Shown here one piece after another: positions 1,952 through 12,779 of a stretch of DNA of 27,154 nucleotides (position 1 is its first letter; each line of letters opens with the position of its first letter). The notes beneath the pieces were generated by a model. The model ran no database searches. It was given only the letters and a program-made list of their open reading frames with translations, and was not told the origin of the DNA. The position numbers and the translations under genes were made by a program. Source of the DNA: a virus; IMG/VR virus record IMGVR_UViG_3300007735_000559, positions 1 to 27,154 of that record; one strand, written 5' to 3'.

Positions 1952-4429
1952 TCAAAACCCGAAGATCATGCTCAAAGCGATACTTTTGCCAGCAGATACT
2001 CCGCTCGATGCGATTGTAATACTGCCGGCGCCGTTCGTAATAGAAATGTTTGAGCCTGCCGTCAAAGTAGTACGGGTAAAGCCCGAACCGTTACCAATGT
2101 CGAGCTGGCCGTTTGTCGGGGTGCTCGTAAGCCCCGTACCGCCTGCAGCCACAGATACGGTGCCGGTTAGGTCGGCGGCTGCCAATGCCGACATTGATAC
2201 GTTAGTCCCGTTACCGCGCAAGTAATACGCAGAGGTGGTTGCCCCTGCCAAAGCGTTTAGCGCACTTTGTTGCGTGGTTGCGCCCGTACCGCCATTGGCG
2301 ACTGCCAACGTGCCGGCAAGCGTGACTGCGCCAGTAGTCGCCGTAGAGGGCGTAAGGCCGGTCGTACCACCGCTGATGCTCGTGACACCCGCCGAACCCA
2401 CGGACGTAAACGACCAGGCGGCATACGTTCCAGAGCCGCCCACTACGTCGACGTTAACCGTCATGGACGTACCGCTAAACGCGGTAATCGTGCCTTCCAT
2501 GAAGTTTGACGGCGTGGTGGTGTACGCCACACGCACTCGAGAGCCGACCGTAAACGCCGTGTTAGTAGCGTTAAGGTTAGTCGTAAAGGTTTTGCTACCC
2601 GTGCCGATTAGTACCGACGACGAGGACGACAAACCGTAGTACCCAATGCCGATCTGCGTCAGCTGGTTTGCGGTGACAATGACGCTCGCAGCCGTTGGCG
2701 AAGTCGGAGACGTGCCAGCGGCATACGGTTGCAGCGTGACGGCAGTAGACGTTGACGACCAATAAAACTCAATGTAATCGCCAGCCGCCAAATCCAGAAC
2801 ATAGTTCCACGCCGCGATCATGTGACCGTCGGTGCCACCATGGCTATTCGGAATGGAGAGGTATCCGGTAGTGCCGGCAACATCAACACCGTTTTTGCGA
2901 ATCCATACGCGCACGTCTTGCAACGACACGCTGGTATTTTGGAACTGGCCCGACCATTGAATGTTGTACAGGCCGGCATTAGCAAACACGATGCGCGAAG
3001 TGGGCGAACCACGGGTTACGCCGTTGACGTAATCGTCCGTATTAAGCGTGATCGGATATGCGGTTGTGACACTCGCAATGCTTTGCGTCGTGGTGTCTTG
3101 GAACGCACCGGAATACGCGGTCGAACCCACGCCCGACGAAATGCTTGACCAGACCGGCGTGCCGGCACCCGCAGATTGCAGATACTGCCCTGCCGTGCCA
3201 ACGCTTGAGTACACCAACGCAGTACCGTTGCCATACGCCACGCCGCCCGCAGTCGGGGTCGCCGTGCTATTGGTGCCGCCATTGGCAATCGGCAGTACGC
3301 CGCTAACTTGGCTCGTAAGGCTAACGCCCGAAAGCGTGCCACCAAGTGTCAGACTTCCAGACGACGTGACCGTGCCGGAAAGCGTAATGCCGTTGACCGT
3401 TCCGGTGCCGGCGACCGACGTAACCGTGCCGACACCACCTGCGCTAATCCACTCAACGTCCGTGCCGCCCACGTTAAGGGCGAGCACTTTGCCGGCGTTG
3501 CCGGTATAGGACGGAAGCAGGTTTATACGCGCATTAGGAGCCGTTGTAGCGCCCGTACCGCCGTACCCTAGGCCAAGGGTGCCGGCCATCGTCAGCGTGC
3601 CAGAACCCGTTATAGGGCCGCCGCTAAAGGTAAGGCCGGTTGATCCGCCCGAAGCGTCAACGGACGTGACCGTGCCGACACCAGAAGCCGAAATCCATTG
3701 AACGTCGGTTGCGCCGGGATTGACCGATAGCACTTTGCCGGCGTTACCGGTGTAAGACGGCAACAAGTTCGTTCGAGCGCCCGCAGCGGTTGACGCCGCC
3801 GTACCGCCCGATGCAATCGCAACCGTGCCGGTTAATTTAGATGCGGACAGCGAGGTGAGCCACGTCGGGTCGGCATACGAACCGGTCGTGTACACGCCGT
3901 TCGTAACCGTTGCGGCATTGCCATTAACGCTAATGCTCCAAGTGCCCGAAGCACCCGTGCCGGTGGGCGATGGGACATCTGTGCCGATGACCAAACCAAG
4001 ATTTGTGCGAGCACCCGACGCAGTTGTTGCGCCGGTGCCGCCATTTGCAACCGCTACCGTGCCGGTGACATTTGCGGCGTTGCCGCTAACGCTGATGCCC
4101 CAAGTGCCGGTTGCGCCGGAACCAGAGGTGCTCGGAACGTCAAGATTCGTGCGGGCATTGGCTGCGGTCGTCGCGCCAGTGCCGCCGTTATCAACATCTA
4201 GTGTTCCGGCAAGCGTGATCGTACCAGATGTAGTGATCGGGCCACCGGAGGTGGTCAATCCCGTCGTGCCACCCGAGACATTGACCGACGTGACCGTCCC
4301 CGCACCAGCGGAGGCCAAAATGTTGGATACGGTGGTCTTTTTGGTAACGTCGCTTTGAACGACCGGGACGAGTTCCGCGCCCGTAAGCGTACTAGCTGAC
4401 GGTAAGTCAGATATTTTAGTCCCGGCCAT
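1952..4429 (-). CDS. Repeat-rich tail fibre with internal C1q/TNF-like domain
   Basis: An 825-residue protein. The N-terminus (MAGTKISDLPSASTLTGAEL) is the kind of short anchor seen on phage tail fibres. A long repeat region follows, with the hexad GGTGAT or a variant near residues 82, 130, 208, 290, 384, 713 and 763, alternating with TVTSV..GG-TGL blocks. Such repeats are typical of trimeric fibre shafts. Residues about 435-595 differ in texture: they contain TTAYPITLNT, a glycine-rich turn, VWIRKNGVDV and DYIEFYW, a pattern like the C1q/TNF-like jelly-roll heads in many phage fibres. GGTGAT repeats resume after it, so the domain sits inside the shaft. SD GAGG precedes the ATG. The role, host recognition, is inferred from family and position. 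Confidence 0.85.
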   Translation of the reverse strand: MAGTKISDLPSASTLTGAELVPVVQSDVTKKTTVSNILASAGAGTVTSVNVSGGTTGLTTSGGPITTSGTITLAGTLDVDNGGTGATTAANARTNLDVPSTSGSGATGTWGISVSGNAANVTGTVAVANGGTGATTASGARTNLGLVIGTDVPSPTGTGASGTWSISVNGNAATVTNGVYTTGSYADPTWLTSLSASKLTGTVAIASGGTAASTAAGARTNLLPSYTGNAGKVLSVNPGATDVQWISASGVGTVTSVDASGGSTGLTFSGGPITGSGTLTMAGTLGLGYGGTGATTAPNARINLLPSYTGNAGKVLALNVGGTDVEWISAGGVGTVTSVAGTGTVNGITLSGTVTSSGSLTLGGTLSGVSLTSQVSGVLPIANGGTNSTATPTAGGVAYGNGTALVYSSVGTAGQYLQSAGAGTPVWSSISSGVGSTAYSGAFQDTTTQSIASVTTAYPITLNTDDYVNGVTRGSPTSRIVFANAGLYNIQWSGQFQNTSVSLQDVRVWIRKNGVDVAGTTGYLSIPNSHGGTDGHMIAAWNYVLDLAAGDYIEFYWSSTSTAVTLQPYAAGTSPTSPTAASVIVTANQLTQIGIGYYGLSSSSSVLIGTGSKTFTTNLNATNTAFTVGSRVRVAYTTTPSNFMEGTITAFSGTSMTVNVDVVGGSGTYAAWSFTSVGSAGVTSISGGTTGLTPSTATTGAVTLAGTLAVANGGTGATTQQSALNALAGATTSAYYLRGNGTNVSMSALAAADLTGTVSVAAGGTGLTSTPTNGQLDIGNGSGFTRTTLTAGSNISITNGAGSITIASSGVSAGKSIALSMIFGF

Positions 4430-10963: not shown

Positions 10964-10997
10964 TATTCCCGTCGACACAATTACTAGGAGAAACACG

Positions 10998-11084
10998 GTG
11001 CAAATTCAGATTCTGAACATTATCCAGGTTGTCTTTCCGATCATTTTTCTTTTCGGCCTTTGCGCCGCAATCGTCAAAAAGTAA
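10998..11084 (+). CDS. Membrane microprotein (28 aa)
   Basis: A GTG start lies 8 bases after a strong SD (AGGAG). The product, MQIQILNIIQVVFPIIFLFG and then LCAAIVKK, is one hydrophobic membrane span ending in two Lys. It is the first frame after the early promoter. The next gene is also a tiny membrane protein with an almost identical ribosome-binding leader (ACTAGGAGAAA-CAC), which argues that both are translated. Single-span phage microproteins can act as early membrane effectors, for example on superinfection or holin timing. Nothing in the sequence decides between these. Confidence 0.6.
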   Translation: MQIQILNIIQVVFPIIFLFGLCAAIVKK

Positions 11085-11090
11085 CCGGAA

Positions 11091-11106
11091 GGGGGCGCAA
11101 GCCCCC
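11091..11106 (+). other. Stable RNA hairpin GGGGGC-GCAA-GCCCCC
   Basis: A perfect 6-bp G/C stem is closed by a GNRA-type GCAA tetraloop, without a following T-run. It stands between the two microprotein genes. It probably stabilises or processes the early mRNA, or attenuates transcription partially. It is not a classical terminator. Confidence 0.6.
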
Positions 11107-11131
11107 GACCATTTCACTAGGAGAAAACACA

Positions 11132-11233
11132 ATGTTTTATGATGCAATGCTTGCCCTTTCTCTGCCGCTGATAGGTTTCGGCATCCTCGCCAGCATCTAC
11201 GGCATCCTCGCTTTTATCTTTAACTGGGAGTAA
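11132..11233 (+). CDS. Membrane microprotein (33 aa)
   Basis: Starts MFYDAMLALSLPLIGFGILA and ends NWE, with one long hydrophobic stretch rich in Leu, Ile, Gly and Ala. The SD AGGAG lies in a leader (CACTAGGAGAAAACACA) that nearly copies that of the upstream microprotein. The next gene follows after 5 bases and its SD (GGGAG) is made by the last codons of this gene. No family is recognised. A single-span inner-membrane early protein is the best description. Confidence 0.6.
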   Translation: MFYDAMLALSLPLIGFGILASIYGILAFIFNWE

Positions 11234-11238
11234 TCAAA

Positions 11239-11604
11239 ATGGTTAGTTTTAAACCTTTCCGCACTGATGCAATGGTCGGCGATAGCGTATCGGTCGATTA
11301 TGGTCCTTTGACCATTCGGGCGACGATTGTTTCAGACAATGAAACTTCGCCCGCAGAATTCGACTGCTATTCCGAGTCCGAGCTTAAAGCATTTAATCGT
11401 GGTGACTGGTGTTATGTGGGGGTGATGTTGTCGATTCACCTTGACGGCATCACCTTGGATAAATGCGCCGCAAGCTTGTGGGGTATCGATTCGCATGGCG
11501 ATTCCGGCCCGTACTTGACTGAAATCGCAAACGATCTACTAGTCGATGCTCTGGTGGTCGCGGATAACCTTATCGCAACCATGCGGAACAAGTTTGCAGC
11601 CTAA
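11239..11604 (+). CDS. Early phage protein of unknown function (121 aa)
   Basis: Starts MVSFKPFRTDAMVGDSVSVD, with SD GGGAG 8 bases before the ATG. The first half is beta-like (YGPLTIRATIVSDNE). The second half has WCYVGVMLSIHLDGITL and a helical C-terminus (LTEIANDLLVDALVVADNLI). It has three Cys, many acidic residues, and no membrane segment or motif that I know. It lies directly upstream of the mini-clamp gene in the early operon and its stop codon is inside the first conserved box of the two-hairpin RNA element. A soluble early protein; function unknown. Confidence 0.75.
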   Translation: MVSFKPFRTDAMVGDSVSVDYGPLTIRATIVSDNETSPAEFDCYSESELKAFNRGDWCYVGVMLSIHLDGITLDKCAASLWGIDSHGDSGPYLTEIANDLLVDALVVADNLIATMRNKFAA

Positions 11605-11680
11605 CCCGTTCGCACCTGGTAGCCCATGCGTTTGCGTGGGTTATCGGATGCGCTGGGCATCGTTTTAACTTCGGAGAATC
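11600..11680 (+). promoter_or_regulatory. Two-hairpin RNA element, copy 1 (before mini-clamp gene)
   Basis: Box CCTAACCCGTTCGCA (11600-11614) is followed by a 14-bp stem with G-U pairs (11616-11629 with 11634-11647, loop GTTT). A second hairpin follows directly (11648-11651 with 11657-11660, loop GCTGG), then TTCGGAGAATC (11670-11680), which contains the ribosome-binding site. The second copy at 12315-12388 has the same boxes, order and GCTGG loop but different stem sequences. A cis-acting RNA controlling translation or processing is inferred. Confidence 0.7.
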
Positions 11681-11686
11681 TAGATT

Positions 11687-12319
11687 ATGAAATTCGCCAT
11701 TGAAGCTGACACCATCAAAGCTCTGCTACTGGCTGCCGCGAAGAAAGACGTGCGGTATTACCTTAACGGCATCCTGTTTGACGTGCGTGCGACCGATGCC
11801 GTAGCCGTCGCCACGGACGGACACATAATGCTGGCCGTCCCCATTGCGCCCGAGCTTGACGAAAACGGCACCGGATCATATTTTCCCGGCCAGTACATCG
11901 TTCCGCGTGACGTACTCGAGAGTATTAAGCCGAATAAAATCTTCCCCCTGTTTTTTACATTCGACCCTGCTGCCCGTACCGTCACTATTGCCAATGCTGG
12001 CACGGAAACGACGGTAAAGCTGGTGGACGCGACGTACCCCGAATGGCGCCGGGCAGTGCCGAAAACGGTAACCGATACCGTCGCGCAATTCGATGCCGAA
12101 TACGTCGCAACCTTCGGAAAGATTCACAAGCTTTTGGGCGGTAAGTATTCGCCTGTCATTCGCCACAATGGCGACGGTAACGGCGGCGGCGGCGCCGGTC
12201 GCGTGATATTGGCCGACAATGCCGTGGGCGTCATTATGCCCATGCGATACGATCGCCAGCCGCTCGAGAACCCGTCCTGGCTCGAGTATCCGTCTGCCAG
12301 TGTGTCCGCAGCGGCCTAA
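11687..12319 (+). CDS. Shortened DnaN-like sliding clamp (210 aa)
   Basis: The sequence follows domain II of the bacterial replication clamp: KKDVRYYLNGILFD (19-32), VATDGH (41-46), YIVPRDVLESI and KLVDATYPEWRRAVPK (111-126). It then jumps to a single further beta-alpha-beta unit ending GVIMPMRY, which matches the clamp C-terminus (VVMPMRL). A normal clamp has about 366 residues in three domains; here domain I and half of domain III are absent. Residues of the partner-peptide pocket are kept (L26, T43, H46, P125, VIMPMR). It may be a minimal clamp with another subunit number, or a decoy that binds clamp partners. Family assignment is strong; ring formation is unknown. SD GGAG. Confidence 0.8.
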   Translation: MKFAIEADTIKALLLAAAKKDVRYYLNGILFDVRATDAVAVATDGHIMLAVPIAPELDENGTGSYFPGQYIVPRDVLESIKPNKIFPLFFTFDPAARTVTIANAGTETTVKLVDATYPEWRRAVPKTVTDTVAQFDAEYVATFGKIHKLLGGKYSPVIRHNGDGNGGGGAGRVILADNAVGVIMPMRYDRQPLENPSWLEYPSASVSAAA

Positions 12320-12388
12320 CCCGTTCGCAGCCTGGTGCGCCTTCACTCGAGGGCGCACTGGGGTACGCTGGGTACCTTTCGGAGAATC
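12315..12388 (+). promoter_or_regulatory. Two-hairpin RNA element, copy 2 (before antirestriction gene)
   Basis: The same plan as copy 1: box CCTAACCCGTTCGCA (12315-12329), an 11-bp stem (12331-12341 with 12352-12362), a 5-bp hairpin (12362-12366 with 12372-12376) with the same GCTGG loop, then TTCGGAGAATC (12378-12388) with the SD of the next gene. In the second hairpin two base pairs change in a compensatory way relative to copy 1 (A-T to G-C and G-C to A-T), which supports pairing in RNA. Confidence 0.7.
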
Positions 12389-12392
12389 GACC

Positions 12393-12779
12393 ATGCAAAC
12401 GACTACGCTTGACCTTTCCGCCGACGTGATCGACGTGCGCGACATTATCGCCCGCGTCGAAGAGCTCGAAACGATTATCGGTGATTCCCTAGACGCGGAA
12501 TCTGTACAAATGGCAATGTCGGAACACCAGGAACTTACCGCCTTACTTAACGAGCTGGCCGGCAATGGTGGCGACGAGCAATGGCGCGGCGACTGGTACC
12601 CGGTAACTTTAATCCGCGATAGCTATTTTATTGACTATGCGCGCGAGTTACTTGAAGAATGCGGCGACATTCCGCGCAACCTTCCGCGCTATATTGCAAT
12701 CGACTGGAAAAAAACGGCGATGACCATTCGCCAGGATTATTCGCATATCAGTCTCGACGCAACCTACTGGTATCGATAA
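12393..12779 (+). CDS. Probable ArdA-type antirestriction protein (128 aa)
   Basis: The ATG at 12393 was chosen because it follows the SD (CGGAGAATC) of the RNA element; the longer frame from 12219 runs back into the clamp gene. Residues 10-60 form an acidic coiled coil (VRDIIARVEELETIIGD). Residues about 72-128 (WRGDWYPVTLIRDSYFIDYA, RELLEECGDI, YIAIDWKKTA, YWYR) match the C-terminal module that I know as phage/plasmid antirestriction proteins of ArdA type. These acidic proteins mimic DNA and inhibit type I restriction enzymes. The protein is acidic throughout, as a DNA mimic needs. Early expression fits. The assignment is from memory of the pattern. Confidence 0.55.
   Translation: MQTTTLDLSADVIDVRDIIARVEELETIIGDSLDAESVQMAMSEHQELTALLNELAGNGGDEQWRGDWYPVTLIRDSYFIDYARELLEECGDIPRNLPRYIAIDWKKTAMTIRQDYSHISLDATYWYR

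Follow-up and report, generated by a model that had tools for sequence, protein, structure and literature searches.

Two copies of a short element in a phage operon belong to a family of about 150 distinct intergenic RNA elements, in which pairing is conserved rather than sequence. The structure is well supported by comparison between homologues; comparative evidence also supports the presence of three helices, the competition between two of them (P0 and P2) and the position of the element between genes. As judged from sequence comparison, the use of a gene is probably tied to the ribosome finishing the previous one. The reading preferred here, which is given a probability of roughly 0.4, is a cis-acting, bistable intercistronic RNA gated by the ribosome that terminates on the upstream gene (translational coupling). 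Held more tentatively is the wider proposal that termination toggles this bistable RNA as a portable, protein-free phage device, a coupling part that unrelated phages reuse ahead of dozens of genes with no relation to one another.

The two copies in the window

The window, i.e., the whole stretch of DNA analyzed, is a virus record of 27,154 nt from IMG/VR (IMGVR_UViG_3300007735_000559) and encodes a P22-type portal, a terminase, Erf-like and RecE-like recombination genes, a primase, a holin and an endolysin. Within its rightward operon of small genes, element 1 occupies the gap between an ORF at 11239-11604 and a gene with a beta-clamp domain (11687-12319), and element 2 the gap between the latter and an ArdA-like gene at 12393-12779 (Table 1). 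A first-pass annotation of this DNA had described a box and an SD-containing leader shared by the two gaps, and both were recovered: CCTAACCCGTTCGCA is found at 11600-11614 and 12315-12329 with zero mismatches, the count of its near-matches being reached by no shuffled window, and TTCGGAGAATC is found at 11670-11680 and 12378-12388. The compensated changes reported for hairpin 2 (A-T to G-C and G-C to A-T) are exactly as described when 11647-11661 is compared with 12362-12376. For stem 1, lengths of 14 and 11 bp had been given; 14 pairs fold in both copies, so that the first figure stands and the second does not.

The genes that follow the elements had been named as a mini-clamp and an antirestriction gene. 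The clamp assignment holds, with a PF02767 score of 35.5 bits over a cut-off of 27; the second protein is ArdA-like, but its PF07275 score of 24.7 bits falls under the cut-off of 27. The ArdA-like protein matches PHROG 25535 (E 2.7e-40), for which the function label is unknown. The best PHROG for the clamp-like protein, PHROG 3007, is labeled 'RusA-like Holliday junction resolvase', a label that looks wrong, as Pfam and PHROG 947 give a sliding-clamp domain.

Two other features of this operon were observed. The ArdA-like frame is open upstream of the SD-preceded ATG at 12393, through element 2 and up to an ATG that lies within the clamp gene at 12219, and a longer read-in product (12219-12779, 186 aa vs. 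128) is possible. At 10981-11136 a leader repeat, ACTAGGAGAAA(A)CAC, lies directly 5' of the starts of two tiny ORFs (10984 and ~11118); this leader is of a second type, without structure, within the operon that carries elements 1 and 2.

Table 1. Coordinates of the two elements and of the adjacent genes in the window.
Feature	Position	Strand	Details and evidence
TAA stop of upstream ORF 11239-11604	11602-11604	+	5' edge of element 1; ORF list, sequence
Element 1, box	11604-11614	+	Loop-pairing strand (A)CCCG 11604-11608; P0 strand CGCA 11611-11614
Element 1, stem 1 (P1)	11620-11643	+	TAGCCCATGC / GCGTGGGTTA; MFE stem 14 bp, 11616-11629 with 11634-11647
Element 1, hairpin 2 (P2)	11647-11661	+	GATGC-GCTGG-GCATC; 5' arm and loop alternatively pair with box
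Leader TTCGGAGAATC with SD, and ATG of beta-clamp-like gene at 11687	11670-11689	+	Sequence, Pfam
Beta-clamp-like gene (sliding clamp, domain 2 only), after element 1	11687-12319	+	PF02767 E 1.4e-8; PHROG 3007, 947
TAA stop of beta-clamp-like gene	12317-12319	+	5' edge of element 2
Element 2, box	12319-12329	+	ACCCG 12319-12323; CGCA 12326-12329
Element 2, stem 1 (P1)	12335-12358	+	GTGCGCCTTC / GAGGGCGCAC; MFE stem 14 bp, 12331-12344 with 12349-12362
Element 2, hairpin 2 (P2)	12362-12376	+	GGTAC-GCTGG-GTACC; two compensated changes vs. element 1
Leader TTCGGAGAATC with SD, and ATG of ArdA-like gene at 12393	12378-12395	+	Sequence, Pfam
ArdA-like (antirestriction) gene, after element 2	12393-12779	+	PF07275 E 4e-5, under curated cut-off; PHROG 25535

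Collection and distribution of the family

The family was collected on phage contigs of IMG/VR with the two window copies as starting point. Relatives of the two downstream proteins were detected in a scan on 82 contigs, and the DNA located 5' of many of them shows the same plan with a different sequence: a stem closed by UAG/CUA, a 3-base spacer (mostly UGG), a 5-bp hairpin, a short leader, the SD and an ATG. In one contig (L002) the clamp gene is also flanked by two copies of the element. Patterns describing half of the element as degenerate DNA each matched dozens of viral contigs. A covariance model, R1, was built with 14 seeds (subset A3), a subset being used because the MAFFT alignment placed the 5' arms of type B elements wrongly. 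The search with this model on the collected loci, of the kind that the first-pass annotation had proposed, yielded 93 distinct elements, with one to four per contig. A second collection, obtained by two scans defined by stem 1 and the arms of hairpin 2 only and blind to box and loop, added 64 further distinct elements after filtering for SD and stem. Further homologues with covariation were thus looked for and many were found; the possibility that the two gaps are only a recent duplication is contradicted by the number of distinct elements on other IMG/VR phage contigs.

Elements were assigned to three types, namely A (that of the window), B (TGACCCATCCGCC-TAGG...) and C (CCGGCACCTATAG...). 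Types B and C share genomes, in most cases with B first and C ~1 kb farther on; in five contigs (L167, L016, L124, L195, and L206) this order is constant, C lying ~0.9-2.5 kb downstream of B, and in these contigs each type has its own leader (CAGGAGA.. or GGAGATTGACCTATG). Carriers include P22-like podoviruses (the window and G006) as well as siphovirus-type phages (G001 and G005). Related copies are not independent events, and lineage-reduced tests were applied where possible. In two contigs (L055, 4507-4564; L017, 4098-4154) the element is almost a palindrome and gives a score on either strand; the copy on the - strand has no SD or start after it.

Rfam 15 gave no match at the gathering cut-off for the window and 20 further loci, nearly all with elements, which supports within Rfam 15 the earlier statement that the layout belongs to no named family; a permissive Rfam search of 11590-12400 returned only a chance miRNA match (E 4.4). 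In blastn searches with the region and with three consensus sequences of the element, the 50,697 named phages gave no match, nor did the clamp protein match any named phage. The ArdA-like protein matched Burkholderia phage Paku and others, and no such element occurs 5' of the ArdA gene of Paku. In this named T7-like phage (L172) a different leader with a small hairpin, GGCG-CATGA-CGCC followed by GATAGGAGCC, was observed repeated 5' of two genes (~3125-3240 and 3738-3808). One pattern searched in 84,980 prokaryote genomes gave two matches with R1 scores at chance level (E 0.39-0.84), and no prophage copy was found with this pattern in those genomes.

Two groups of pattern matches were discarded. 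About half of the distinct matches to the first pattern correspond to a conserved protein-coding gene (CTATGGGATGCGCCGCAAGCATC) in which stem 1 is absent. A lambdoid group of ~22 contigs that matches the second pattern inside exo (phi80 exo) was excluded from the family. This exo DNA reads as two tandem hairpins, TAGCCAG...CTGGCTA and GGTGC-GAAA-GCACC (L278 at ~7000 on the - strand; phi80 28418-28618), which are coding and have neither SD nor box match, hence their exclusion; the region is similar in more than 100 phage records.

Stem 1 and hairpin 2

Strong covariation is seen in both stem 1 and hairpin 2; on this comparative evidence the element acts as RNA. The homologues support the earlier claim of a functional RNA whose structure is kept over sequence. 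In an alignment of 66 distinct rows every pair (13/13) changes on both sides in at least some rows, and 99.5% of the cells pair, compared with at most 48% in slid controls. This alignment leans on the covariance model; two other tests are independent of it. When matches were selected by the 3' half only, leaving the 5' arm free, seven of seven Watson-Crick pairs in stem 1 were present in 28 of 33 intergenic matches and in none of the 31 protein-coding look-alikes that share this 3' half. In type C elements, 84 free inner pairs were distributed as 68 Watson-Crick, 16 G-U, no A-C and no other combination; as the deviations are G-U only, they indicate RNA, since a DNA palindrome would not give such a pattern. 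Comparison of the fold with shuffles gave z-scores of -3.0 (copy 1) and -3.2 (copy 2) for the + strand, and of -1.1 and -1.0 for the - strand.

A third helix between the box and loop 2

The pairing of the box with the loop of hairpin 2 forms a third helix, which was missed by the first-pass annotation. The last 20 bases located 5' of stem 1 are more complementary to their own 3' flank than to the flanks of other elements, and the box matches its own loop better than swapped partners (0 of 50,000 permutations; 4 of 50,000 when reduced to 16 lineages). Because some cases had been seen before this first test, the second, blind set was used for an out-of-sample comparison, in which the 64 new elements gave 0 of 20,000 permutations (z 8.5) and 23 lineages gave a z of 5.3, about one third of these lineages having only a partial match. 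The register is fixed, with the paired box strand ending 8-9 nt 5' of stem 1 in 43 of 52 clear cases. In 23 gap-free composites (inner stem 1 trimmed), four of the five box-loop pairs change on both sides, one of them appearing as UA, CG, GC, and AU. Examples include TGAGCCG with CGGCTCg (L235), AACAGC with GCTGTT (L047), ACATT with AATGT (L226) and TGATT with AATCA (L225), as well as TAATCG (L221) vs. TAGTCG (L003), both with CGATTA.

In the window copies the box-loop pairing amounts to only ~3 bp if P2 is intact, and in type C the box is conserved and its pairing partner is weak. Three copies in another contig (L060, at 5739, 6453, and 6821) occur without hairpin 2, their box pairing perfectly with the 3' flank (ACCUAUCCC with GGGAUGGGU), and represent a long-hairpin-only variant. 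The type C boxes and these copies are not fully explained by the proposed model.

Competing helices and alternative folds

Both hairpins of the two-hairpin layout proposed earlier are present; the layout was incomplete in that a helix between the box and loop 2 and another between the box and the 5' arm of P2 are also conserved. Relative to P1, box positions -13 to -9 pair with the P2 loop and positions -7 to -3 (P0) complement the P2 5' arm. P0 and P2 share this arm and therefore cannot both form. The arm GATGC goes with the box triplet ATC (16 vs. 1) and GGTGC with ACC (10 vs. 0), and the P2 3' arm changes in step with the 5' arm (GCATC and GCACC, respectively), resulting in a three-way covariation. 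On comparative grounds, one strand with two conserved partners looks like a bistable RNA.

The lowest-energy fold of the window copies is one long imperfect hairpin in which stem 1 is extended by the box, CCCG-UU-CGCA of the box pairing with UGCG-C-UGGG (P2 5' arm and loop); hairpin 2 is therefore one of two competing folds. In copy 2, a G to A change in the P2 5' arm is compensated in the 3' arm and spoils the pairing with the box. Since this change keeps P2 at the expense of the box pairing, selection acts on hairpin 2 itself. The lowest-energy fold is the long hairpin for type A and two hairpins for types B and C; with 16 nt of upstream flank, 63 of the 93 elements favor at least 18 pairs in one unbranched hairpin, and type C and some type B elements prefer two short hairpins. 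The SD stays outside both folds in the two window copies, thus simple SD masking does not explain an effect on gene n+1.

Position between genes

Both window boxes begin at the stop codon of the upstream gene (Table 1). In the first set, the stop codon of the upstream ORF is located 4-16 nt 5' of stem 1 in 87 of 93 elements (mode 10), and in the new set at 0-17 nt in 61 of 62; in both sets together the distance does not exceed 17 nt in 148 of 155 elements. The loop-pairing strand of the box includes 2-3 bases of this stop codon in 39 of 52 clear cases. An SD and a start codon are found downstream in 86 of 93 elements, as a rule 13-40 nt after hairpin 2, and in 62 of the new set, and the downstream proteins belong to ~40 and ~35 unrelated families in the two sets. 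Against a link to termination, the compactness of phage genomes would by itself put any intergenic element beside a stop codon.

The frame of the downstream ORF relative to the upstream stop is random (23, 20, and 17 of 60), and a stimulator of programmed readthrough or frameshifting was excluded because this frame is not constant. An intrinsic transcription terminator was also rejected: there is no immediate U run, and hairpin 2 is followed by a varied leader, SD and ATG in the 86 elements mentioned above.

Proposed mechanism and alternative explanations

The location of the box at the upstream stop codon and the unrelated genes downstream point to coupling with translation termination, a reading absent from the first-pass annotation. 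In the resting state, pairing of the box with the loop and through P0 would bury the region of the upstream stop and form one long imperfect hairpin. A ribosome at a stop codon covers about ten bases beyond it; as this is the distance to stem 1, termination on gene n would have to strip the box. On reaching the stop of gene n the ribosome would thus release the box from loop 2 and from the P2 arm, P2 could form, and the RNA would refold and be reset once the ribosome has departed. Close to the SD of gene n+1, the fold adopted by the element would indicate whether gene n had recently been translated and would govern how gene n+1 is started, by reinitiation or by fresh loading of 30S subunits, the element being a putative portable switch for coupling or insulation before many unrelated, mostly small genes.

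Structured RNA families with covarying pseudoknots usually serve a single pathway, as riboswitches, ribozymes or protein operators. The element described here is tied to a position, with a stop codon on one side and an SD on the other, and not to a gene family, and it is spread among podovirus- and siphovirus-type phages, without a cultured match in the searches of named phages. If true, the termination-gated mechanism would explain how translation is set gene by gene in compact phage operons without proteins, and would add a compact component for the design of coupled operons. Should one of the rival readings hold instead, the analysis still provides a family of ~150 distinct copies, the covariance model R1 and clear two-sided mutants, and the role of the element is testable with ordinary reporters.

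The explanation that survives best after this one, although unlikely, is mRNA punctuation, in which the long imperfect hairpin would be cut by RNase III or another endonuclease so that each gene has its own stabilized mRNA, as in T7; in a variant of the same reading the cut would fall between the two hairpins, which would cap the resulting ends. The elements lie as the T7 sites do, starting at the upstream stop and ending before the SD, with several per early region and before unrelated genes, and the T7 gaps also fold into upper stems of ~10 bp with an internal loop. The single unbranched hairpin of at least 18 pairs favored by 63 of 93 elements and the SD that is not sequestered are consistent with such cleavage. 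However, hairpin 2, the UAG/CUA closing pairs, the UGG spacer and the covariation of loop 2 with the box are all conserved and none of them is needed by RNase III, and type C elements prefer two short hairpins.

Also improbable is a translational (or antitermination) operator, by which a phage or host RNA-binding protein would read the pseudoknot and coordinate the early genes. Several copies per genome before unrelated genes and the conserved unpaired letters of the UGG spacer agree with this role, and pseudoknots do serve as operators, as in T4 gene 32. On the other hand, with types B and C in one genome (L167, L016, and L124) one protein would have to read several loops, and the link to the upstream stop codon is left unexplained.

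An element acting on the transcribing RNA polymerase by protein-free antitermination, like putL/putR of HK022, is very unlikely: put has two stem-loops of about the same total length and occurs twice per phage, but it lies downstream of early promoters (PMC9378689), whereas the elements here are found between genes and beside stop codons, and R1 detects no homologue in the HK022 genome (best E 1.3). A metabolite riboswitch, an option raised in the first-pass annotation, would fit a compact pseudoknot 5' of the SD and is nonetheless scarcely credible, as the box is built around the upstream stop codon, the ~40 and ~35 unrelated downstream families have no metabolic theme, and loop 2 and the box vary freely if paired, so that few unpaired positions are invariant and could form a ligand pocket. 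A DNA-level element (a binding site made of repeated GGATG half-sites) or a recent duplication that has no role as RNA, suggested by the box and both hairpin 2 arms being often copies of one word (CATCC / GGATG), is given next to no weight and is already contradicted by a stem 1 of arbitrary sequence that is yet paired, by the 16 G-U and zero A-C on the + strand of type C, by the presence of elements in unrelated phages and by good fold z-scores on the + strand only.

Comparison with known systems

Cluster K mycobacteriophages contain SAS/ESAS, short intergenic elements that recur at the ribosome-binding site of many unrelated non-structural genes; they are in part an inverted repeat with a variable spacer, and no function is assigned to them (PMC3203893). 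SAS is a fixed 13-bp sequence, GGGATAGGAGCCC, located at the SD, 3-7 bp 5' of the start codon, and according to its authors the ESAS repeats do not support RNA pairing (PMC3203893). Like SAS/ESAS, the elements of this family are repeated before unrelated genes, with 1-4 copies per contig and ~40 and ~35 downstream families; in contrast, they keep pairing and not sequence, their third helix lies at the stop codon of the upstream gene, and GGGATAGGAGCCC is absent from the leaders read, which differ between types.

The put RNA of HK022 comprises two stem-loops in ~70 nt, is present in two copies per phage genome and is cis-acting (PMC9378689). Its own feature is the binding to the zinc-binding domain of the beta' subunit of RNA polymerase, by which termination is suppressed. 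The element resembles it in having two stem-loops in ~60 nt and differs in lying beside the stop of an upstream ORF (148/155) and not downstream of early promoters. The put RNA, SAS and the named riboswitches were set aside on the basis of sequence, position or Rfam score.

The RNase III processing sites of T7 (R0.5, R1, R1.1, R1.3 and others) are likewise imperfect hairpins, the T7 type being intercistronic and about two helical turns long, that extend from an upstream stop to just before an SD, several per genome and before unrelated genes. They have neither hairpin 2 nor a known covariation between loop and box, and cleavage is shown for T7 whereas the elements were compared by fold. In the leader of T4 gene 32 a pseudoknot also lies upstream of a phage SD; there, in contrast, a single gene is autoregulated by its own protein.

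In the translational coupling of repY and repZ, termination of the ribosome on the upstream frame sets which fold forms. We know of no sequence relation between the repY-repZ pseudoknot and the phage element. In IncI-type plasmids (ColIb-P9), an RNA pseudoknot just upstream of the ribosome-binding site controls repZ translation (Asano and Mizobuchi 1998, cited in PMC8383071). The position and the pairing of the element fit this arrangement when the two are likened by sequence layout. The plasmid system concerns one gene in one plasmid family and involves an antisense RNA, whereas the element is portable and precedes many genes. By analogy, the repZ pseudoknot of ColIb-P9 would be the nearest known precedent for a termination-gated switch placed between phage genes.
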